DNA from: Branchiostoma floridae
Lineage: Eukaryota; Chordata; Leptocardii; Amphioxiformes; Branchiostomatidae
Assembly: GCF_000003815.2 (NCBI RefSeq)
Contig: NC_049984.1
Location: 9,058,622-9,122,621 of the forward strand
Reading direction: 5' to 3'
Length of the DNA: 64,000 nt
A program made the position numbers and the translations under genes. How positions within the stretch are numbered: the first letter of the stretch is position 1; each line of letters opens with the position of its first letter. The notes beneath the pieces were generated by a model. The model worked only from the letters and a program-made list of their open reading frames with translations, searched no databases and was not told the origin of the DNA. Below, one piece after another: positions 6,001-30,000 of the stretch.

Positions 6001-6884
6001 CTACAAGTATACTGCAACATAAAAGAGAATATATACAAGTTCTATTTTTTTTCCAAGTCCAAGAAGCGTTTCCAGCCGTTCCGGTTTTAACCGGACTTGG
6101 ACCGAAACTTTTTTACAAGTCTAGTGCCAGGTTCGGCGCGCGGCGTAGTTTGATAGCGGTAAATAATTTATGACAATTACGCTCATTTTTCGCCGTGAAC
6201 ATTAAAGTCACGTGACAAAATCACATGCCGCGGTCGTTTTGGCAGTGTTTGGGTAACATGCGGTCGCCTTTAGTGGCGGTCGAAGTCGCGTTGGACAGTG
6301 GTCGTCATATACAGAAATCTTAATGCTTACGTCTATGGGAAAATTCAAGGGACCGCTTTTCAGCGGTCGTAGTGGACAGTGGGTCGTTATGCACAGGTGG
6401 TCGGTAGACCAGGTTTCACTGTACTGTAAATGCATTTAAGTTTGCAGGGATTTAATTTCCCATTAGCAAGAAAGTGCAGTGTTTGCGGTGGTTTTAAGTT
6501 CTCGGTAGTGCCATACACTGTAGTCACATACTGTAATGAAAAAATTTTTGCAGTGGTTTTAAGTTCGCGGTAAGACTGCCTCCCGAAAACCGCGAACATA
6601 AAATCACCATGTACGTTTCTGCATTTAAAGTAGTCGGTATAACCGCCCTTTGGCATAACACACCACGGACTTACCTGTTTGCCATAATCAATATCAAGCC
6701 CCTCCAGCCTGTATTCCAAGAGGGAGGCCTCGCCTTTCAGCGTCACCTCGTAGGTGGGCCCACCCTCCACCTCGCAGATGGCGGTGGCATTGCAGCCGAT
6801 CCCGGAGTGGCCATAGAAGGTGAAGGACACACGCTGTGTCTCCCCAGGGTGCAGGATCCCGTACAGGGGGAGGATATCAAACAC
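1..6884 (-). CDS. HYDIN: HYDIN coding exons 26-35 (residues 1339 to about 1937; last exon cut by the window edge)
   Basis: Exons 6884-6675, 4140-4003, 3862-3779, 3537-3292, 2846-2707, 2475-2139, 1789-1655, 1305-1156, 726-487, 117-1. Exon 26 encodes an ASH domain (ILPLYGILHPGETQRVSF); exon 31 another (LHFGYVVLGEVRIHIVRVTN); exon 32 begins VSEEVLDFGTVQCGQC. Exon 35 reads ILRLMKGYDEQHTLLLPP and then only stays HYDIN-like if the frame shifts by one base at the C-run (plus strand 62-66), after which it gives a plausible GDGLPFELQDFYQEYKK. Splice-site regions of exons 32 and 34 have been partly tandem-duplicated in their upstream introns. Confidence 0.88.
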
Positions 6885-9800: not shown

Positions 9801-12800
9801 GCAAAGGGATGGTCCACATCCAGGAGTACAGTCAGGGGCAGTGAAGACATGTTCCTCAGCTCCAGGGGCTGATGCTGCACCTCAAGTACATCTTCTGGGT
9901 TCTGTGGAAGTGACAATGATACAACACAATAATCTAACAGCTCACAAGTGCATAACATAATTCATTAAAATATTTCAAGGGTAAGAGACATGTAAACATT
10001 CCATCCTAAAAACCACTTGCTATGAAATATCATGATTGTGGTGCAGCCCTGAAATTAAGAACATCATTACAGCACACCACATCACATGTTTTGTGTGGTG
10101 GCAGAACCAACATACCTTGTCTATCCTGAAGTTGATGTTGCGAGTGGAGAGGTCCAGCAGTGGAGCGATGAACTCCACGTTGATGTCCATCGTCATGATG
10201 TGCTCCTTTCCGCTGCTCTGACCAATGATAGCGTGGCACAGCATACGCTCCCGCAGGACCTGGGGTCTGAGGTGGCAAGACATGACAATTTTTTAAACAC
10301 TTCAAGGATGCATTGCTGTGTTTGCTTGGTACAAATTGTACGATGGTTTGTATACTGTAATTTTGTGGGGATTTACTTTCACGGTAGCAGGAAAATTGAT
10401 GTTCCCAATGGTTTTAAGTTTGCGGTAGCCCTATAGATGGTTGTCATATACTATAATGGAAAAATGTTTGCGGTGGTTTTAAGTTAGCGGGCAAGTGGCC
10501 ACTGCAAAAACGCAAACATAAAAGTTTGTCATCACACAAATGACTTCAACGTAACTTACTTTTTTGTCAGCCCCTCCAACATGACATCAATTGTTTGCCC
10601 CGGGTTCAGCTCCATACGGTGGGGTTTCAGGTGAAAGATGGGTTCACTTGTCGGACCATTCTGTTAGGAAAGTCAGGTGTCAGAATCACAAATTTGTATA
10701 TGAAAAAAATGGATCTACTGCACTTAGCCAGTCAGTCATCTTGATGAACCACTCAGATAGACTAGAACAATACGTAGTCTTTAGTTATATAGAACTCTTT
10801 ATTACTGTAAGTAAGTGTTACAAGCTATTGCATAGATATTAGTCGATTTTTTTAATGTATGTATGTACTGCCCTTGATCTTGCCATACATTGTATTCACT
10901 ACAATTGTTGAGCAATAAATATTGATTGATTGATCTTTGACAGGTTATTGTATTGTATTTAAGAAACTCCAGAACTAAGAGCACAAAAAGTTACAATTGA
11001 CATGAAGACTACCGTAGTAGGAAATGGTTGATGATAGGAAAAGGAGCATACATCAAAGAGGACCTATCAAGAAAGCCATACCTGGTTGTTGTTGTTGTTG
11101 GAAGTGGCCCTGCGGATGCGGTACATGGGGAACCCCTCGGTGTGCCAGAACAGCTGCTGGTGACGCCGCCCCTTGTTGGTCAGCTGGAAGTGGTACTGGC
11201 AGGGGCTGTCACTGTGGCACAAGAACAGCACAATATCAGCACCACGGCCAGTTGCTGCAATACCCTGTTACATACCTTACTTTTACCTCTCACAGGATAA
11301 CAGAAGGCAAAAGCTGCCTGATTCCTTAAATCAAAATACCTCATCATTGATATAGGATATTTCATAATCTCCAGGCAGATTTACCAGTGGCATAAGATAG
11401 TATCAAAGCTTGTTAAGGAGTATAGCTGGCCAAAGGGAGTCATCAGATAGCCAAACACACTCCTAGGCCAGCTTCACTCCTTTTTGATACTGTCTTATGC
11501 TACCGTAGGATCTACTTGGAGATTAGATCTTCCACTGGAGTACTGCTGGTGACTGTACAGCTCACAGATGTGTCCTTACCTGAAGTGTGGGCCCAGGTGG
11601 ACAGCAGGTGTGATGGGGGGGTTAGCAACAATGGTGGTGCCGTGTCCATAGGCCTGCACCACGATGGTGCGTGGCTGGCTGCTTGGGTACTGGATGTACA
11701 GCTTGTCCTTGAACCTGATGCAGTCGTCCAGGTGTGCTGTGAGGACCAGCTCCTGCGCAGACTCCGGGGGAATCACACCCTTCTGCGGCTCCACCCGCCA
11801 CACAGACCCCGGCCTCATCTGTAGGTATGGGGAGAAAACAATAGATGCATCTACATACTATATGGTGAAAGGGTGAACTGTGACAAGAAAAATGCTTTTC
11901 TTTTGGAAAATGAAGGACAATTTTTGTAGTAACTGAGCATACATACATGCAGCTATACTTAGATAGATATTTGCAAAGCTTGAAATGCCAAATGGCATAG
12001 ATATGATAGTAAAATCTCAAATCAGTATGAATATGTTCTTTAAGGCAAGCTTCAGTACATCTGATTGTAAAATTTCAAATCAATCTCTTCTTCTTGAAGG
12101 CAAGCTTCAGGATATTTGATTGCTTGCTGATTGCAGTTCTGGCCTTGAGTGTTATTTGTGAATCTTGCACTGAGTGAGATATTCTTTCTTTTTTACCATA
12201 GAAACGTTGATAGGTTAAAGCGCTCCAACAGGATATGTACTGACCATCTGTGCAGAAAAGGGTGCTGGTATCAGAGACTCGTTGGACAGCTGTACGGTCC
12301 TGTGAACGTCTGTCAGCACCCGAATATCTCCCCAGTCCAGCTCGGTGGGTGCCACATGCACAACTGGACCCTCTCCTACACAGCACACGTGCACCTGCTG
12401 TATACCACAAATACAACATTGCCAGTAACAAAATTATCAAATCATCATATAGTGACCTAATCAACCCACAGAAAGGTAAGTCTTCAAGCCAGCAAAATAA
12501 AATAAAATACATCTGCTGACTGAATTTTGTCAGGCCACATATATCTGGCACCCTGAACAAATCTGTCTTTTAAAACATTCCCAATGCAACATCCCAAGTG
12601 TAATGACTGTCCTGTATATCTAAACTGTGCTTAACTTGGGAGTTCTGCACTAGAAATCTCAAAACTCAAAACTAGAAATCAAACCAGGTATATCCGAAGA
12701 CCGTGGATTGATGAATTCCACAGCTGTGATATTCATCACTTAGATGATGAATTCCACAGCTGTGAAAATGATGAATTCCACAGCTGTGATATTCATCACT

Positions 12801-15800
12801 TAGATGATGAATTCCACAGCTATGGAATTAATCAATAGTGCTGTGGGATTCATCGATCTACTGATGAATCCAACGCCACTTCCGTCCCTTATACTGGCGA
12901 TCGGCCGTGAGATTCATCGATCTACTGATGAATCCAACGCCACTTCCGTCCCTTATACTGGCGATCGGCCGTGAGATTCATCGATCTACTGATGAATCCA
13001 ACGCCACTTCCGTCCCTTATACTGGCGATCGGCCGTGAGATTCATCGATCTACTGATGAATCCAACGCCACTTCCGTCCCTTATACTGGCGATCGACCGT
13101 GGGATTCATCGATCTACTGATGAATCCAACGCCACTTCCGTCCCTAATACTGGCGATCGGCCGTGGGATTCATCGATCTACTGATGAATCCAACGCCACT
13201 TCTGTCACTAATACTGGCGATCGACCGTGGAATTCATCGATCTACTGATGAATCCAACGCCACTTCCGTCCCTAATACTGACGATCGGCCGTGAGATTCA
13301 TTGATCTACTGATGAATCCAACGCCATTCTCGTCCCTTATACTGGCGATCGGCCGTGGGATTCATCGATCTACTCATGAATCCAACGCCACTTCCGTCCC
13401 TTATACTGGCGATCGGCCGTGAGATTCATCGATCTACTGATGAATCCAACGCCACTTCCGTCCCTTATACTGGCGATCGGCCATGAGATTCATCGATCTA
13501 CTGATGAATCCAACGCCACTTCCGTCCCTAATACTGACGATCGGCCGTGAGATTCATCGATCTACTGATGAATCCAACGCCACTTCCGTCCCTTATACTG
13601 GCGATCGGCCGTGGGATTCATCGATCTACTGATGAATCCAACGCCACTTCCGTCCCTTATACTGGCGATCGGCCATGAGATTCATCGATCTACTGATGAA
13701 TCCAACGCCACTTCCGTCCCTAATACTGGCGATCGGCCGTGGGATTCATCGATCTACTGATGAATCCAACGCCACTTCCGTCCCTTATACTGGCGATCGG
13801 CCGTGGGATTCATCGATCTACTGATGAATCCAACGCCACTTCCATCTCTTATACTGGCGATCGGCCGTGGGATTCATCGATCTACTGATGAATCCAACGC
13901 CACTTCCATCTCTAATACTGGCGCTCGGCCGTGGGATTCATCGATCTACTGATGAAACCAACGCCACTTCTGTCCCTAATACTGGCGATCGGCCGTGGGA
14001 TTCATCGATCTACTGATGAATCCAACGCCACTTCCGTCCCTAATACTGGCGATCGGCCGTGAGATTCATCGCTCTACTGATGAATCCAACGCCACTTCCG
14101 TCCCTAATACTGGCGATCGGCGTGGGATCATCGATCTACTGATGAATCCAACGCCACTTCCATCTCTAATACTTGGCGATCGGCCGTGGGATTCATCGAT
14201 CTACTGATGAATCCAACGCCACTTCTGTCCCTAATACTGGCGATCGGCCGTGGGATTCATCGATCTACTGATGAATCCAATGTCCATTCTGTCACTAATA
14301 CTATAAAGCCTTTGGTCGTCGGATTCATCTATGTAATGATAAAATCTACTGTCTATGGCAGTGCGGATGCTTCTACAGAGAGCTTTGTAATATTTTTTGT
14401 ACTATTCTTTGTTGTGGGACTCACAAATTCTAGCACTTATCGACAGCTGAATGAGCAAGAAAAAAAGTGTACTGAGAACTTTGCATTTATTGGTCACATA
14501 TTCATATTAGCACACATTTGAATAAAGTTACAATCAATCATCAAACCAATGATCATCTGGAAATTCCTGCAAGGAAGATTTTTTTTGTGCTGATTTTGGA
14601 GTTTTGCGCTTTGAGGCATAAACATTTCAACTTGTAATTCAAATGAATTGCTAACCATGTTGTGAGCTGTCCAGTACAGTATAATTGATACAAATCTTTA
14701 TCTGCATGTTTTTTTCTGTTTTATTACATGTATAACACACTATTTACATTGACTCCCGCAAAAAAGCCACTTGGCTGACACATGTAACAATGTCGCTGTT
14801 TCCTAGAATAATATTGATTGTTTATTTGCAAAATAATACTCCTGAGGGCCTGCAGGACCCACCTATTACCAAGTAATTAATGGCTGGATAGCTTTTCCTA
14901 GGTAATAACATTCCAAACATTACCGTGGCGTGAACTAGCATTCCTGTGGACACATTCCTGTACAAATGGAGCTGACAAATGCTAGAATTGCACACAATAC
15001 TAATTAGTAATAGAGTTGCACTGCTCCTGTTGCGTGACCAATAACAAAAGTTGCACAATATACACAAAATACCCTGCACTTACAGTCATCAATATGTAGT
15101 GATAATATCCACGGGCATTCCGTCGCTAATACTGACAATTGACTGTGGACTTTATCAATATGTTGTGATGAAGTCGAACGCAGCGTAGAAAGAAAAAAAT
15201 CACTCAAATCTTTAATACCACCCGCTACCGCAATGACTGATGGGATAGCTTGTGTTCCATTTTGTTCCTTTGTTTTCAGTCACATGCTGAAGATTTTTGT
15301 TCAGCATGTGACATGGGGTGCACTGGAAGAGTAAATTCTTGCACTGGGAATTTTGGGCTAAAGTGTCATTAGTAGAAGTGACTTTTAAAGAAAAGTGTTC
15401 CATTTTTGCACATGGGTGATTTTGGAATAGTCTATTGTTGCATGGGGAGGGAGATGGCTGAAACATGCTGTACTGTAAATGCAGAAACGTTCTCGGTGGA
15501 TTAAATGAACTTCGCGGTTTTCACGGCGGCCACTTCACTGCGAATTTAAAACCGCCGCGAACATTTTTCGATAACAGTAAGAGACTATAGTGCATGTTGC
15601 TACAGTGAAATAAAAAACACCGCAAAAAGTCCATGTTATCTGTTGATATGTTAAATTTTTCAGGCCATTCTTGAGCAGCATGTTGAATAAAGTCTTTATT
15701 TGGCTCCTTATTATCAACAAAATTGTTTAAAGTTTTGAAATGAGTCAAACATTCTTCTGGGTTAATGGCATTATCATCCTTCTGTTGAACATTATCTTCC

Positions 15801-18800
15801 TGTCACAGTGATTTGATTTCCCTCCAAGATTATATTTTTTGTGGATTTTCCTTACTAAGTTTTCTGAGATTGTTTAATTGTATTTCTTTGAAGAGTCTTT
15901 TCTCTGTCTTGATTTTCTTCTTGTACAATTTCAGATTGCAGAAGTATACGTGGCGAACATCAAGTTTCCACAGGCACTTAGAAAACTGAGTGGCTAATTG
16001 TTTTATTTTGTGTTTAAGAGATGCACATGAATGGTTGAACCATGGTTTACTTTTCTTCTTTCTTTTCTTGTTATTGTTGTGGGTAATTTTACGCAGACAT
16101 TTATCAGCTACATGTGTTATTATATCAGAAAATTCTTTTACTGCATTGTCTACGTCACAAAATGACTTAGCAGTAAAGTTTTGTAAGATTTTTTTTATAT
16201 CGGAGGATCCTGTAATGCCTCTGTAAATTTGAGTTTGGAGTTATCATCCCAAATGTACTTAGTTGGTAATGGGTTTGTTGGGGCTTTAGCTTGTTTTACA
16301 TAAGGTGAATAGTTAGTTGAGATAGAGCATCAATTAAACAGTAGTCTGTTGGTTTAGTATTGTTTGTGATTGATTGAAAAACAAAGGAGCATTGGTCAAA
16401 ACAAGTCATAATCCCTTACCACCCAAGCCACAAAGCACAACATTGGGAAGCAGTGAAATTTTCTTGCATACAGTCTGTTGGTTTAGTATTGTTTGTGAGT
16501 GATTGAAAAACAAGCTTGGCCTTTTCTGGCTGGGAAAGTTCGTCTTGTCATTGAAGGGAAACTTGAGAATTCTCACCTACCTGTATAGGCCTAATTTCTG
16601 ACAAGAAAGACTTCAGACAGTGTAACGATCTCAATCGTTGAATTATTGAGAGAGTTTATTTTAGCAATAGAAGGGAGAGTTGAATCCAATGAGCTTTTAT
16701 AAAACTTTAAAAGCTTTTATAAAAGCTCCTTGCTAGAAAAACCTCACGGCCCACTGAATAATATCAACATACGTGTTGCTTCTTTGCTGCGTGGGACACT
16801 TTAGTGATCATGGGACCCCGGGACGAAATGGGCAGCCATAAGCATATCGTTAGTTTATTTACGCATTTTGATCGCAAGGTATACTAGTGCCCAAAATTTT
16901 AATAGCATATAACGACAAGAATGGCGTCGCTTATATCTTTTCGATGATAAAACTGTCCTAATTAGTGTACCATCGATATTTCAAAACAGGGCTAATCTGC
17001 TACACATATTGAATTCCTAATTTACCATATTGTTCGCTACTTTTGAGTAACATATGTCTGCATATTAAGAGGGAATTTCGTTTGTGAACAAAAATCTTCA
17101 GCATGTGACTGAAAACAAAGGAACAAAATGGCACCCAAGCTATCCCATCAGTCATTGCGGTAGTGGGTGGTATTAAAGNNNNNNNNNNNNNNNNNNNNNN
17201 NNNNNNNNNNNNNNNNNNNNNNNNNNNNNNNNNNNNNNNNNNNNNNNNNNNNNNNNNNNNNNNNNNNNNNNNNNNNNNNNNNNNNNNNNNNNNNNNNNNN
17301 NNNNNNNNNNNNNNNNNNNNNNNNNNNNNNNNNNNNNNNNNNNNCTGTATCGATGAATCCCACGGCCGAGCGCCAGTATTAGGGACGGAAGTGGCGTTGG
17401 ATTCATCAGTAGATCGATGAATCTCACGGCCGATCGCCAGTATAAGGGACGGAAGTGGCGTTGGATTCATCAGTAAATCGATGAATCCCACGGCCGATCG
17501 CCAGTATTAGGGACGGAAGTGGCGTTGGATTCATCAGTAGATCGATGAATCCCACGGCCGATCGCCAGTATAAGGGACGGAAGTGGCGTTGGATTCATCA
17601 GTAGATCGATGAATCCCACGGCCGATCGCCAGTATAAGGGACGAGAATGGCGTTGGATTCATCAGTAGATCGATGAATCTCACGGCCGATCGCCAGTATT
17701 AGGGCCGGAAGTGGCGTTGGATTCATCAGTAGATCGATGAATCCCACGGCCGATCGCCAGTATAAGGGACGGAAGTGGCGTTGGGTTCATCAGTAGATCG
17801 ATGAATCCCACGGCCGATCGCCAGTATTAGGGACGGAAGTGGCGTTGGATTCATCAGTAGATCGATGAATCCCACGGCCGATCGCCAGTATTAGGGACGG
17901 AAGTGGCGTTGGATTCATCAGTAGATCGATGAATCCCACGGCCGATCGCCAGTATAAGGGACGGAAGTGGCGTTGGGTTCATCAGTAGATCGATGAATCC
18001 CACGGTCGATCGCCAGTATTAGGGACAGAAGTGGCGTTGGATTCATCAGTAGATCGATGAATCCCACGGCCGATCGCCAGTATTAGAGATGGAAGTGGCG
18101 TTGGGTTCATCAGTAGATCGATGAATCCCACGGCCGATCGCCAGTATTAGGGACGGAAGTGGCATTGGATTCATCAGTAGATCGATGAATCTCACGGCCG
18201 ATCGCCAGTATAAGGGACGGAAGTGGCGTTGGATTCATCAGTAGATCGATGAATCCCACGGCCGATCGCCAGTATTAGAGATGGAAGTGGCGTTGGGTTC
18301 ATCAGTAGATCGATGAATCCCACGGCCGATCGCCAGTATAAGGGACGGAAGTGGCGTTGGATTCATCAGTAGATCGATGAATCCCACGGCCGATCGCCAG
18401 TATAAGGGACGGAAGTGGCGTTGGATTCATCAGTAGATCGATGAATCCCACGGCCGATCGCCAGTATTAGGGACAGAAGTGGCGTTGGTTTCATCAGTAG
18501 ATCGATGAATCTCACGGCCGATCGCCAGTATAAGGGACGGAAGTGGCGTTGGATTCATCAGTAGATCGATGAATCTCACGGCCGATCGTCAGTATTAGGG
18601 ACGGAAGTGGCGTTGGATTCATCAGTAGATCAATGAATCTCACGGCCGATCGCCAGTGTTAGGGACGGAAGTGGCGTTGGATTCATCAGTAGATCGATGA
18701 ATCTCACAGCACTATTGATGATTCCACAGCTGTGGAATTCATCATCTGATGAATATCACAGCTGTGGAATTCATCATCTAAGTGATGAATATCACAGCTG

Positions 18801-21800
18801 TGGAATTCATCAATCCACGGTCTTCAGATATAGCTCATCAAACATACTGTTTACAAAGTGTCAGATTTATGCAACTGGCTGATAAATGTTGATGGAGGTT
18901 AAAGATGAGGGTCCAGCATGTAAAGTTCACTGTGTTGTTTTCATCATTTTTTTTCAAGGTCAGAGGTTAAAGAAAGTAAAAGTTCCCAATTGTTTACCAT
19001 TGGAGGGTCCTGGCTGCCAAAGATGTGGATGTACACAACCTCCTCCGCCTCGTTGAGCTGCTGTGCTGTGCAGGTGAGGGGGATCTCTGTCACCGTGTGG
19101 GGCTGCAGGATCCCCCGCCACTGGGAGCTCTGGTATGTCAGGGTGCTAGCATCATCCACCGCCTGGTGTAAATGGCAAAAAACAGACATGAAAATATTAA
19201 TCACACATCATCTATTATGATAAATGTATCAAGAGAGACCTTTACTAGGCCTAATGTTCATTACACATAGATAAAAACAAGTAAACACACTATTGCATTA
19301 TTTTGGAATAAATCAAATCGTCACCATCAAATTACATATGAAACGAAAGGTGTATTGAGTCCTGTTCATATACCATGTTTGCTAATGTTTGGACCTTTCT
19401 TATAATATCTATTCTACACGTATAACAGTCTTAACAATGTTTGTCTATAACGGTAGATGAACAAATATAAAACATCTGATGTACTGAATACATCCTGGAC
19501 TGACCTGGGGTATGATGTCATATTTGGCAGGTAGTTCGGTGTCATTCAGGATCTTGATGCTGTGTTCGTAAGGGAAGCCCAGGAAACAGCGTCCAAAGTC
19601 CAGCACAGGTGTCACCACAGCTAGGGTTGGCACTATGCACCTGTACAAAACAACATTACATTTGTAAGGTATAGCTATTTTCCAGATAATGAATTGCAAA
19701 TTAGTCTTGTCTCTCCTAAAATTTGAATAAGAAACAAAATCTGATTTCTTTAGGAATTCTGCTTGTTTGAAATACGTGTAATATCAAATATTACAGAAAC
19801 GTGCATTATTGTAGTATCTTCTGATAGATACATACTTGGCCACTATAGGAAGCATGAGGATGCCCTGGCCTACACCCTGTACATCCACCACCAGCATGGA
19901 GTCATACTTCTTCACTGTGTTGGACACCAGAGTCACCTGTGGACACAACAAAGCATCAGTAACTGTGGTGGTATTGTAATAGACATTCAACTTGGATTTA
20001 CACAAAGCAAAGCAGCACAATGCTAGAATAGACTGGGCAATGTTCGCTAAAGATTTCAAACTCTGCTAGTCAAGAGAGAGTAGTTGAAGTTACAATGAGG
20101 ATTCAATACAGATTTTTAACTTATGGTGGACACTGCAATTAGAAGAGCAGTGCATTAAGTAAGGATATAACAAAGGTTTATCTTATGACACTATGTTCTC
20201 AACAAAGCTGCAACACACATTCAGTTTAAAAACAAACAAAGCATTTACCGATTCTAGCCCATCTAATCACATCACCAACACTGTTCCTACATGCATGACC
20301 CTCCTGTTACTGACCTGGACCTTGACTTGGCTCTGTGCAGGGATGGTGCCACTGGAGGGAACAATGATGAACTCCTGTAGTGCCGAGGATACGCTCTGGT
20401 TGGGTTGGTGATCGCTGGCGTGAGTACCGTCCTCCAGGTCCAACAGGCTACATATGCTGCGCTCGCCGGTACCGTCTCCCGGCACGTGCAGACTGAAGGT
20501 CATGGGCACCAGCGCCGTGTTGACTATAGTACAGGTCTGGGTGTGCTGGAAACCTGAAGAAGATATTCCATTTGTCAAATACAATTTTCATTTATCCACA
20601 AATGTGAGTGTGCACATTGTAAAGATTAGTACATTGTAAAGGATACATAAAATTGTTTATTTGGGAGTATTTCTGCTTTTATCTAAATACTTGTGACAAT
20701 GCAGTACTTACCGTAAGAAACAACTCCAAAGTTGAGTCGTGGAACATCAAAATGGAATGTAGGCCCAATCACACAGCCCCTGTAGAACAGATTAATGAAC
20801 TCCAGTTAATGAATACTTCACGCACATACCAATGACAGAGATGGATGTAATCAAATTATTAGGCAATTTGCATATTTTATACTGACTATAGGTAATTTTA
20901 CCTGAAGGACAGCTTTAGCCTCTGTGGGGAGCCATCAATAGCTATGTAGAAGTCTTCCTGGAAGTCACCAAGTGTAGCAGACCTAAGGACAGAAAGTAAC
21001 CTACATTATAACTGTGTAAAATATTGCCCCTGCATCTCAGATTCCATTTATATTTAACACAAGAAACAAATCATGCAATATATCTAAATCCAAGAACAGA
21101 TTGTCACCATCACACTAAGTAAACCAAAGTGTAGACAACAAACATTTTCCTAAAAATGCCTCTTTGCTCTGTTGAACTTTCAACAATACATTTGACCAAT
21201 GGCCGATAAGATATGCAGACCTGAAGGTAATCTGTATGGCCTGGTGTCCATCAGGTAGAACGATGCCCTCTGTTGGGTTGAAGGTGAAGCACAGGCCAAA
21301 ATGCGTGTTGTTGGGAAGGATGCTGAAAATGGCATCAATGTCACCCTTGTTGGCAAGTACAACCTGTGGGTATGAGGCAGGATATACAACATTAAGGTCC
21401 TCAGAGAATGCATTTTATCACATGCAAGACACTTTCTACAAATGGCCAGTATAATAGGGTAAAAGTTTGTTTCAATGACAGGAGGAAGATACAGTCAAAC
21501 CTGTCTATAATGGCCACTCAAGGGACTGGAGAAATGTGGCCGCTATAGACAGGTGGCTACTATAGAGAAAATGCTGATCAATTGACAACGAGCAATAAGT
21601 TACACATGATTTCAGTACCCACTGATTTTTCTCACCAAGTAACATTGTCTCAATCGTCTCAAAATTCAACTGACCCTGCCAAAGTCAAATCTACAGGTGG
21701 CCACAGGTTTGACTGTATTACAATAGCATGAAATATTGGCTATGCTTCAACTTTTCTCACCTCATAGGTGTGAATAGACCCTACAAAGATGTTTCCCATG

Positions 21801-27031: not shown

Positions 27032-30000
27032 ATGACGAGACCAAACTCTTTTAGAAGTGGGTCCACTGTTGGCAGTAGGTCTGTGTTCTCCTCAGTTCAC
27101 TACAAGGTGCACCCATGTGCCAGTGTTCATCCCTACTGCCTGCTGGCAGCTTCAGGTATGATACTGTTTCAAATTCTGAAAGTTGATTGCAATTTTGTAA
27201 CTGCCAGCCAGAGGCCATATTGTTGATAACCTTATGCCATATTGTTTGATAGAACTGGAGGTATTACAGCTGACCCCAGCTGTTGTGAAGTAATCTCCAT
27301 ATGTGTGATGTGAAAAATTGATTTTCTCATATCACTTCTGATTTTTGCTTTTCAGGGATTGTAGTGATCCTGACAGGCCTGCTCCAACTGTGCCTGTACT
27401 TCAGCCTCCGCACACTCACCACATCCCTGCACTACACAGAGGGACCGATACCCACATATGTCAACGCTATTACAGTACGCTCAGTTTCATTTTCTGCTAT
27501 AACATGTAGAGTTGTACTGTGCACATATGATAAGGCAGTAATCTCTACAGTAACACCATATGGTACCAGCATGGCATGCTTTGTTTAATTGGTGGTAAAG
27601 CCCACAGGCAGCTCCTGAGTTTCTATTATTAACAAGAGCCCAGTGGGGTGACTAAATTATTGATTAACACTTTGAACTTTCAAATAGCGCTAAATATGTG
27701 AAATTTTCCGTTTTGTTTTGAATAAAATAGTAGCATGTGTATCATAATTACCGATATTCAGAAATACTTGTGATGAGTACACAAACAACTTATCTATCAT
27801 ACTCAGTTCATTGCTATCAGCTATGGTAACATCATATATCAGATATTCATTCATTTTGTCCTACCTTGCTGCAGCTGGTCTTTACTGGGTCACTGGTGAT
27901 TCTGGTGGCCAGACATCCGGAGAAATATCTGGTGAGTTTGCTGCATCATTAGCTGTATAGAAGTACTCAATCTAAGTCCCTACTGAAGTAGCCTAGTAAA
28001 ATATCTAATTTCTGTACCAATTTTTACATGTACATGTATGATGAGAGAATAAAGTATCTCACAATAAATGAGAAAATCATTTTTATGTTGCATCTATCTT
28101 TCAAAAAGCAGTCTGAAAAATTGTCCAGTGGACATTTATTCTACAGACATAAATCAACCAGTTTGCTTAGGATGTTTGGGGCAGGTGCGGGAGAAGTTCT
28201 CAGACTGGGCGAGTTGCCCATAATGATGTGATTGTGATGCTTGCCAGGTACATTAAGTGTTGGCTTGTTGTTCCTGTCCTCAGCTGATGTTGACCATTGG
28301 TGGCTNNNNNNNNNNNNNNNNNNNNNNNNNNNNNNNNNNNNNNNNNNNNNNNNNNNNNNNNNNNNNNNNNNNNNNNNNNNNNNNNNNNNNNNNNNNNNNN
28401 NNNNNNNNNNNNNNNNNNNNNNNNTGCACCTGTATATCACACACTCAAGAAAGGTATGGATTCCAGAGCTTTTGTTTAGATTTATTAGGTAGCCGATGGC
28501 CTTTTTTTAGTATTAAACTGAAACTTATATTCGATTTGGATTAATTAAAATTGCAACCATGCAATACAGGTGGGTCACAGGAAGCGGTAGACTGGTTTTG
28601 TGATCCACACATTAATACACAGACATACAATGTCATGTAACATTAATACACTAAAAAAACTGGAATATTGAGATGAAATGTTCATCAACAATCAGCATTC
28701 TTGTTTTGTCTTTCAGGATTTATCAATTTTGTTGGAGCTCCAAACTGCCATGTGATAGAGAAGAACCTCCAGAATGTGGTCCTCACCATGTGTGTTCTGT
28801 ATGGGTTTGTGTGTGCAGTCCTGGTCTTCAGTTTCTCTGTGGAGTGCTTTTGGTTGGGAGTCCAGCAGCAGCATGGTAGCATATCACAGGTGAGTTACAT
28901 GGTCAACAAAACACTTGGATATATTTGGATAGTCTAAATATGTTTCTTCTCCTCTATTACCGCAGATGCCTGAAGGAAACTAAAGACACTGCCAGCAAAA
29001 GGAACCCTTTAAGTAATTTTCTTCCTGCTGAAACACGATAGACTGCTCCTATTTTTACAGCGGTAGTATTAGTATCATTTCCTCATATTTATACATATGG
29101 AATTTCAGACATCTGCACGACAGGATGATATCAGTAGATTGGAACCTGGACAAGCAGATTCTGATGATGCTAGCAGCCAGACTGACCGGCCAGTGCGGGT
29201 TCTTAGGGTCCGTCGACACGTTTCCTTAGATAGTAGCAGTGGACACAACTTAACCAGGTACGGGATATTATCACTTGTGCTCTACCTATCATAAAAGAAT
29301 AATAAAGGGACTTCACAGGAGATGCAGTGTAGCTATTAGTGCTGAGAACCCTGGCTCTATTGCTTACTTCCACCTTGTCCTATGATAATTTCTTGTTTGC
29401 ACTGTCTTCTTAGTGAGGAAATAGAGACTCATGACATGACTGTTTATTTCTCCATAGACCAATCAGCCGTACCAGCAGTCTGAGTGGCGTGGACCTGTTA
29501 TCACAGCAGCTACATCAGCAGCTAAGGGATGGTCCAACCAGACATGCACACCACAGAAGAGCAAGGCATGTCTTCTTTTGCATACAGTTCAGTTAGTTGC
29601 CCTATACAAGCTGCCAATACAACCAGTTATTTACATGTAGTATTCCGGGAAGGGATTATTGATAAAAGGTGCAAAAATTCAAGTCTTTTGTCTTGCCAAT
29701 GTTGAGATCCCATGTGAAGCAACGTAACTCCCATATTCTTGTTCTTCAGGGCACGAGCAAGACCTCGAAGGGTGGCTAGCATGGACCACAGACTGCCCCC
29801 TGTTCATAGGCAAGTGGTGCGAGCCCACAGTTTACAGACCCAAGGTCCTCACAGAAACACTGGTCTCCCTCCTATGGGACGCTTACAGTCAGGACAGTCT
29901 GGATCACTGGGTTCCCTGACGGCAGCCTTCCCCCTGGGCTGGCACTATGGGAGGAGGCTGTCATACGTGGCCACAGGACAGAGTTCATACCTAGCCACTG

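Follow-up and report, generated by a model that had tools for sequence, protein, structure and literature searches.

Foldback elements, of which FB4 of Drosophila is one, carry inverted repeats made of tandem repeats, and those for which a description was found are assigned to Mutator or P, or lack a known transposase. The element considered here lies in an intron of HYDIN in the lancelet Branchiostoma floridae, within a 64,000-nucleotide stretch of contig NC_049984.1 (positions 9,058,622 to 9,122,621; this whole stretch is called the window below). Here, the same architecture appears to occur in another lineage: with a probability of roughly 0.83, the copy in the window is a non-autonomous cut-and-paste foldback transposon of the KDZ (Kyakuja-Dileera-Zisupton) lineage, in which the transposase gene is accompanied by an NRF1-like gene.

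Galileo, a P-superfamily element of Drosophila, is likewise a foldback with tandem repeats in its inverted repeats, unequal repeat numbers in the two arms and 7-bp target duplications; it also has chimeric copies without matching duplications, as found here (PMC3573991, PMC3688188). The THAP domain of its transposase binds the tandem repeats of the inverted repeats (PMC3688188). Whereas the Galileo transposase is of the P/THAP type, relatives of the window element encode KDZ and an NRF1-like domain. Tm1, a Mutator/Foldback family of root-knot nematodes, shares composite inverted repeats with internal repeats, two differing end motifs, and non-autonomous as well as miniature inverted-repeat transposable element (MITE)-like members (PMC3169594), but has 9-bp duplications and a Phantom/Mutator-like transposase. 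Tetris of Drosophila virilis is also a foldback with tandem repeats in its inverted repeats and no coding capacity; its unit of ~220 bp and duplications of 8-10 bp differ from those described here, and its transposase is unknown (PMC4079207).

Published KDZ elements duplicate 7 bp (Kyakuja) or 8 bp (Zisupton) of target, and they share with the present family both this duplication length and the KDZ domain, which is found here in autonomous relatives (PMC12730594). The Cryptococcus elements KDZ1-3 have inverted repeats of 139-241 bp and duplications of 4-8 bp, and in fungi a CxC zinc-binding domain occurs alongside the KDZ transposase (PMC12810828); giant KDZ elements keep nested insertions (PMC12477816). 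In the sections consulted, the accounts of Kyakuja, Zisupton and KDZ1-3 mention neither satellite arrays nor an NRF1-like gene (PMC12730594, PMC12810828). Intronic tandem repeats with unstable unit number are also known from amphioxus as mirages, minisatellites that duplicate a host exon-intron boundary, whereas the array studied here is part of a mobile element (PMC3087553). Reports of KDZ foldbacks or of NRF1-like genes in transposons were not recognised in the literature searched, outside which most subscription papers lie, and the same literature, which does not cover Repbase/Dfam, yielded no description of the family.

Foldback structure and mobility

The window copy consists of two arrays of a 64-bp unit in opposite orientation (95% matches each in Tandem Repeats Finder) around a core of about 3 kb (Table 1). 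The arms are complementary at 95% across 1,291 nt (12831-14121 against 17429-18719, the longest ungapped pairing), the CACAGCTGTG outer blocks 12709-12821 and 18725-18812 are mirror images by Tandem Repeats Finder, and mirror symmetry reappears within the core, where 15210-15303 pairs with 17085-17178 at 97%. An earlier note, made from the letters of the window alone, had recognised a foldback element within a HYDIN intron and its mirrored arrays and outer blocks. Arms, host exon matches and target duplication bear this description out, whereas both true ends are 4 bp farther outward than it proposed.

Copies of the element were sought in the window's own assembly (513 Mb, 431 contigs). The 64-bp unit gave 250 matches, and among the 150 matches listed, 13 loci were discerned by eye, mostly with plus-strand matches followed by minus-strand ones; they comprise the window and 12 others, one of which, contig C386, represents the window insertion assembled a second time. 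Arrays converge in nine of the 13, whereas four have a single array or two arrays of the same direction (C14:12.12M, C10, C16 and C14:14.62M; two of these contain large N gaps). The window core is common to 8 of the 12 other loci (7 of 11 without C386) at 94.0-99.5% per aligned piece; three of the remaining loci have no core match and one retains a relic of the unit only. The core is 3,033-3,046 bp long in those four copies that carry no large insertion; one of these, on C2, contains no N. Unit numbers vary by arm and by copy, for example 5.8/17.2, 8.8/18.2, 12.8/19.2 and 18.8/13.2.

The genome contains 25 exact matches to the end pattern GAAGACCGTGGATTGATGAATTC and 89 with at most three mismatches; for the reversed pattern there are none. 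Among the loci with both ends, which define this count to the exclusion of single-end loci, 12 of 16 convergent end pairs are flanked by exact, flush target duplications, which are 7 bp long in ten cases and 8 bp in two, and none of 240 mismatched end pairings used as a control reaches 6 bp. As the layout also recurs at other loci, it is not due to chance. Joined flanks of 12 insertions were compared with the genome; the 40 candidate places scored, out of 1,928, all belong to the C18:485k insertion and are silent on the other 11. At 40 of 40 of these places, the joined flanks match over 150 of 150 bp at 99%, the target being a dispersed repeat with one CTCAATA where the filled site has two. 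The earlier note had looked to empty sites for a definition of the target duplication: an unoccupied site exists for C18:485k, and in the window the duplication is ATCAAAC.

Both traits of the Foldback class, inverted repeats made of tandem repeats and dispersed copies with target duplications, are thus present. The arrays are satellite-like and their unit number is variable, so that a plain satellite, inverted or rearranged in place, might be considered; given the convergent arrays, the shared core and ends, the target duplications at dispersed loci and the unoccupied sites of one insertion, this reading can practically be discarded. The earlier note would have given up a mobile element if the unit occurred elsewhere only as head-to-tail satellite, and the convergent pairs with ends and target duplications speak to the contrary. 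The window element is a mobile foldback element rather than a rearranged satellite.

Several copies depart from the common form. Contig C386 (5,841 bp) has the same right flank as the window copy, but its right array counts 11.4 units where the window has 21.2, and its core contains a ~108-bp array; it may represent the other haplotype, in which case unit number would be polymorphic. At C2:29979871-29980073, a miniature member of ~200 bp combines the two end types and shows a duplication of 8 bp, CACGTACT. Two inserts, of 31,000 bp and 6.7 kb, lengthen the copy at C5:22433426-22475948 to 42.5 kb. The larger insert has no visible target duplication and holds coding pieces of ADAMTS spacer and thrombospondin-1 domains; it may reflect host-gene capture, rearrangement or misassembly. 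The smaller one (about 22467.5-22474.2k) has inverted ends, CACTACCACTGGCC..., a TTA duplication and an open reading frame (ORF) of 1,015 amino acids (aa) for endonuclease and reverse transcriptase. This C5 copy had been a candidate for a giant autonomous element, but it is an ordinary copy with two insertions and has no KDZ match inside.

Subfamilies and the KDZ transposase

The earlier note saw no transposase in the window copy, and this is borne out: 10 of the 11 core ORFs of at least 60 aa were scanned against Pfam, and none scored above any family cut-off. Relatives with other ends are more informative. Two further end types, GGAGACC and AAGGACC, go with 66-bp arrays of a related unit and with 7-bp duplications (TCTCGGA, CCAGACT, GGATTTG, GTCAGCC and GTGGAAG). 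The outer letters are the same or nearly so across end types, the AAGGACC type having GAGG for GAGC, and one end on C7 reads CAGGATATCC; throughout the lineage, the termini are asymmetric, with CAGG-TAT... at one end and GAG(C/G)-TAT... at the other. Pieces of 50-309 bp in the window core align at 70-96% with an AAGGACC element on C17, which measures 13.4 kb including 2,351 N and has no KDZ match. A composite at C14:14620028-14624028 consists of a shortened element, with the window end type and a 64-bp array, set between 66-bp arrays of the AAGGACC subfamily.

A member with GGAGACC ends at C19:9717153-9734429 (17.3 kb, duplication CCAGACT, homologous 66-bp arrays) contains an ORF of 434 aa that scores 30.1 bits against Pfam KDZ (PF18758, cut-off 26.6) and matches no other family. 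Its upstream exons were found via an intron-poor relative, with GT-AG borders set by eye. Among five KDZ relatives from the same genome, four score above the Pfam cut-off, at 54-77% identity and with no match to another family. Genome-wide, KDZ has 12 matches; many KDZ-gene matches, mostly broken, cluster at C9:0.39-1.76 Mb.

A second element, at C11:11.43M, measures 10,475 bp including 983 N and has ends GAGCTATGTAAGCG and CAGGTATGTAAGCG, inverted repeats of ~780 bp (90.9%), termini GAGCTAT/CAGGTAT and, as a 17th end pair, an exact 7-bp duplication, GATAAAA. No 64-66-bp array was found in it, and ORFs homologous to KDZ and NRF1-like ones lie on one strand. The window element therefore has its outer tetramers, its TAT and its 7-bp duplication in common with an array-less KDZ element. 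KDZ genes thus occur in members with matching ends, on C19 and, by homology, on C11, and duplications of 7 or 8 bp accompany 12 of the 16 pairs and the C11 element.

The likeness to Foldback/Galileo elements that the earlier note pointed out holds for the architecture and not for the transposase, which in relatives with matching termini is KDZ. A Galileo-like foldback moved by a THAP-domain P transposase would have the same architecture and 7-bp duplication, and the tandem repeats of Galileo hold transposase-binding sites (PMC3573991, PMC3688188). P-type transposase (PF21787) does match at three places in the genome, none of them in any element studied, while elements with matching ends encode KDZ; 26 ORFs of the C19 element were scanned against Pfam (several of 50-110 aa being left out), with no P or THAP match. 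A P transposase acting on these ends is consequently improbable. Two P-type matches lie in long frames outside the elements studied, at C19:10311853 (767 aa) and C11:17076605 (678 aa). More improbable still is a Mutator/FB-type foldback of the FB4, Tm1 and Tetris kind. Its inverted repeats of tandem repeats would fit, as would the differing short motifs at the ends of Tm1 (PMC3169594), but Tm1 and Tetris duplicate 8-10 bp, mostly 9, in the accounts consulted, against 7 bp in ten and 8 bp in two of the 16 pairs examined here, and the 26 C19 ORFs gave no Mutator-type match.

The NRF1-like gene

The C19 element has a second gene: the minus-strand ORF 9720313-9720636 matches the NRF1 DNA-binding domain (PF10491) with 39.1 bits (cut-off 23.5) and human NRF1 (8k3d) with E 2.6e-11, and was the single match from 20 additional C19 ORFs scanned. 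Further NRF1-like copies score 32.1 bits on C9 (29.4 in the genome-wide search) and 64.1 bits on C11. All ten PF10491 matches in the genome are above the cut-off; five of them, in order, form one host-like NRF1 gene on C5, and four of the other five lie 0.7-8.4 kb from KDZ matches (C19, C9:1.65M, C9:1.05M and C11:11.44M). The fifth, on C1, is inside a copy of the C11 sequence (98-99% over the three longest pieces) with an N gap at the KDZ position.

On C9, two copies, which are duplicates of each other by their flanks, have a GGAGACC-type end joined directly to the subterminal sequence that follows the arrays in C19; KDZ pieces lie 2.4-2.9 kb inward in both and an NRF1-like piece 1.6-1.8 kb inward in one. 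A shortened copy on C14, with the window end type and a 64-bp array, has a homologue (46%, E 1.8e-11 in a small database) of the C19 exon that adjoins the NRF1-like one, and the order of array, coding repeats and exon is the same in C14 as in C19. The C19 exon belongs to the NRF1-like gene region on the minus strand, and its C14 counterpart has diverged. The next 15 kb past the C14 copy yielded no match to KDZ.

Both C19 genes might be nested passengers of another transposon, the mover of the foldback family then being some other enzyme. The two genes are on opposite strands, and a shorter C19 relative is without the whole gene region, like an empty site, with its junction within the flanking tandem arrays. 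Still, no inverted repeats bracket the gene region inside the C19 element, and a second of the two shorter relatives without it, at C11:7.77M, has a different junction; at C11:11.43M, the outermost ends are the same terminal tetramers with a 7-bp duplication, and the duplicated C9 locus ties such an end to KDZ and NRF1-like fragments without arrays. Passengers are accordingly unlikely, if somewhat less so than a P transposase.

Assignment to the KDZ lineage

The window copy is linked to KDZ by shared ends, duplications, related arrays and one exon. Beside the observed mobility signature, the shared termini and the genes of the relatives, we infer that a KDZ transposase moves the window copy and that its dyad units are binding sites.

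Several observations weigh against this assignment. No copy with the exact end type of the window was found with a KDZ gene. The Pfam scores for KDZ are modest (26.9-34.1 bits against 26.6, covering 86-124 residues), and the fifth KDZ relative, on C11, is broken by N and leaves a 94-aa piece without Pfam match; the C11 gene is known by homology (stretches of 58.5%, 41% and 61%) in an element holding 983 N. The CxC zinc domain was not found in the C19 and C11 ORFs scanned, which sample the exons in part. KDZ and NRF1-like genes are on opposite strands in C19 and on the same strand in C11 and C9, and the density of KDZ remnants on C9 weakens the argument from proximity there. The C14 exon match comes from one 100-aa query, which also hits the C16 copy weakly (31%, E 1.6e-4), a match taken for chance. 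Four of the 16 end pairs are without an exact duplication (C5, C18:8.95M, C11:1.14M and C5:6.02M); the C5 pair has a near-duplication, TCAGATC/TCAGATG (6 of 7), and the right end of C18:8.95M is altered. Finally, Kyakuja termini are described as CA...TG without inverted repeats (PMC12730594), whereas CAG...CTC with long inverted repeats is found here, and the element is therefore not filed as Kyakuja.

Dyad units and a possible mechanism

The consensus of the left array contains a 9-bp dyad, GGATTCATC/GATGAATCC, and TTCATC-loop-GATGAA is retained in all three unit consensus sequences, which have z-scores of -3.10, -1.91 and -2.93 when folded as single-stranded DNA; the 60-bp outer unit CCACAGCTGTG has a DNA fold z-score of -7.05. 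Within the element, GATGAA/TTCATC is present 98 times across 5,986 nt (only 2 of these in the core), as against 48 times across the remaining 57,729 nt of the window. From one subfamily to another, the terminal palindrome CCACAGCTGTGG changes to CCGCG(G/C)CGCGG, in parallel with a unit stem that changes from GTGG/CCAC-like to CGCGG/CCGCG. Ends and arrays would hence carry the same motif, as read here without a formal covariation test.

With regard to a possible exchange of units between the arms of an element, 295 units were pooled; differences per 64 bases amount to 3.53 between the arms of one element, 3.47 between different elements and 3.21 within one array; element by element, left units are slightly closer to right units than to those of other elements in 7 of 9. 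As unit numbers differ between arms, the arrays seem to grow separately in each arm.

These features are probably connected in the following manner: The KDZ transposase of an autonomous relative would recognise the CAGGTAT/GAGCTAT ends in trans, make a staggered cut of 7 bp, sometimes 8 bp, and paste the element. The 64-66-bp units around TTCATC...GATGAA, whose motif also lies in the terminal blocks, may serve as additional sites for the transposase or an NRF1-like partner; by analogy with Galileo, the arrays would offer repeated binding sites. Between terminus and subterminal region, units may have multiplied in tandem, each arm changing length on its own, while the genes were lost and a retrotransposon fragment joined the ~3-kb core. 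A more tentative proposal, with odds clearly below even, is that a two-gene KDZ lineage captured the NRF1 DNA-binding domain, that the dyad is read by the NRF1-like protein or the transposase, and that amplification of the dyad into arrays made the gene-less foldbacks, resulting in a transcription-factor-guided transposon with a self-made binding-site satellite.

An NRF1-like domain tied to KDZ genes would amount to a transposon with a host transcription-factor domain and would provide a candidate reader of the repeated dyad. Apparent stages coexist in one genome: plain inverted repeats on C11, a member with both transposase and arrays on C19, foldbacks devoid of genes such as the window copy, and miniature ends on C2. 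With these side by side, the origin of foldback arrays, as extra binding sites or as neutral satellites, becomes directly testable.

Features of the window copy and its host gene

Table 1. Parts of the foldback element and adjoining HYDIN exons, in window coordinates
Feature	Position	Strand	Remarks
Foldback element	12685-18836		6,152 bp, of which 166 N
Left target-site duplication ATCAAAC	12678-12684	.	Identical to the right one, flush with the end
Left terminus, CAGGTATATCCGAAGACC...	12685-12708	+	Kept at other copies
Left outer palindromic blocks, 60-bp unit x 1.9, CCACAGCTGTG	12709-12821	+	Tandem Repeats Finder
Left array, 22.8 x 64 bp	12843-14302	+	Tandem Repeats Finder
Core, ~3.04 kb including 166 N	14303-17348	.	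94-99.5% identity with other loci
Relic of 66-bp unit, sister subfamily with AAGGACC ends	15086-15175	+	Match to C17-element units reaches 90% over 90 bp
Inner inverted repeat, left copy	15210-15303	+	97% complementary to 17085-17178
Non-long-terminal-repeat (non-LTR) retrotransposon ORF fragment, 136-aa open stretch	15833-16240	-	From the part that separates endonuclease from reverse transcriptase
Inner inverted repeat, right copy	17085-17178	-	Pairs with 15210-15303
Assembly gap, 166 N	17179-17344	.	Breaks the right side of the element
Right array, 21.2 x 64 bp, inverted	17349-18707	-	Tandem Repeats Finder
Right outer palindromic blocks	18725-18812	-	Tandem Repeats Finder
Right terminus, GAGCTATATCTGAAGACC... 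reading inward on the minus strand	18813-18836	-	
Right target-site duplication ATCAAAC	18837-18843	.	Flush with the end
HYDIN exon-bearing ORF, upstream side of the intron	18947-19207	-	9ijj_4G residues 795-841, E 4.5e-5
HYDIN exon-bearing ORF, downstream side of the intron	12218-12433	-	9ijj_4G residues 842-889, E 3.2e-14

HYDIN is on the minus strand, and a further upstream exon ORF matches 9ijj_4G (Hydrocephalus-inducing protein) with E 4e-99; from the residues matched by the two flanking ORFs, the element is placed in the intron between residues 841 and 842. The arrays, with a GC content of 0.51-0.52, are richer in GC than the core (0.37). No Rfam family matches 12000-19500 at gathering scores.

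Within the core, the minus-strand stretch 15833-16240 is 91% identical to part of a 1,079-aa open frame elsewhere, of which the 1,036 aa obtained match RVT_1 and Exo_endo_phos (reverse transcriptase and endonuclease). Judged by this homology, the window core includes a retrotransposon fragment. The family of this frame is the parent of the fragment, and the retrotransposon inserted into the C5 copy showed no kinship to it (best blastp E 1.1). The core also contains a dispersed repeat, 15471-15626, which recurs in the window at 6482-6632 (76% over 157 bp), and the window has one other assembly gap, 119 N at 28306-28424.

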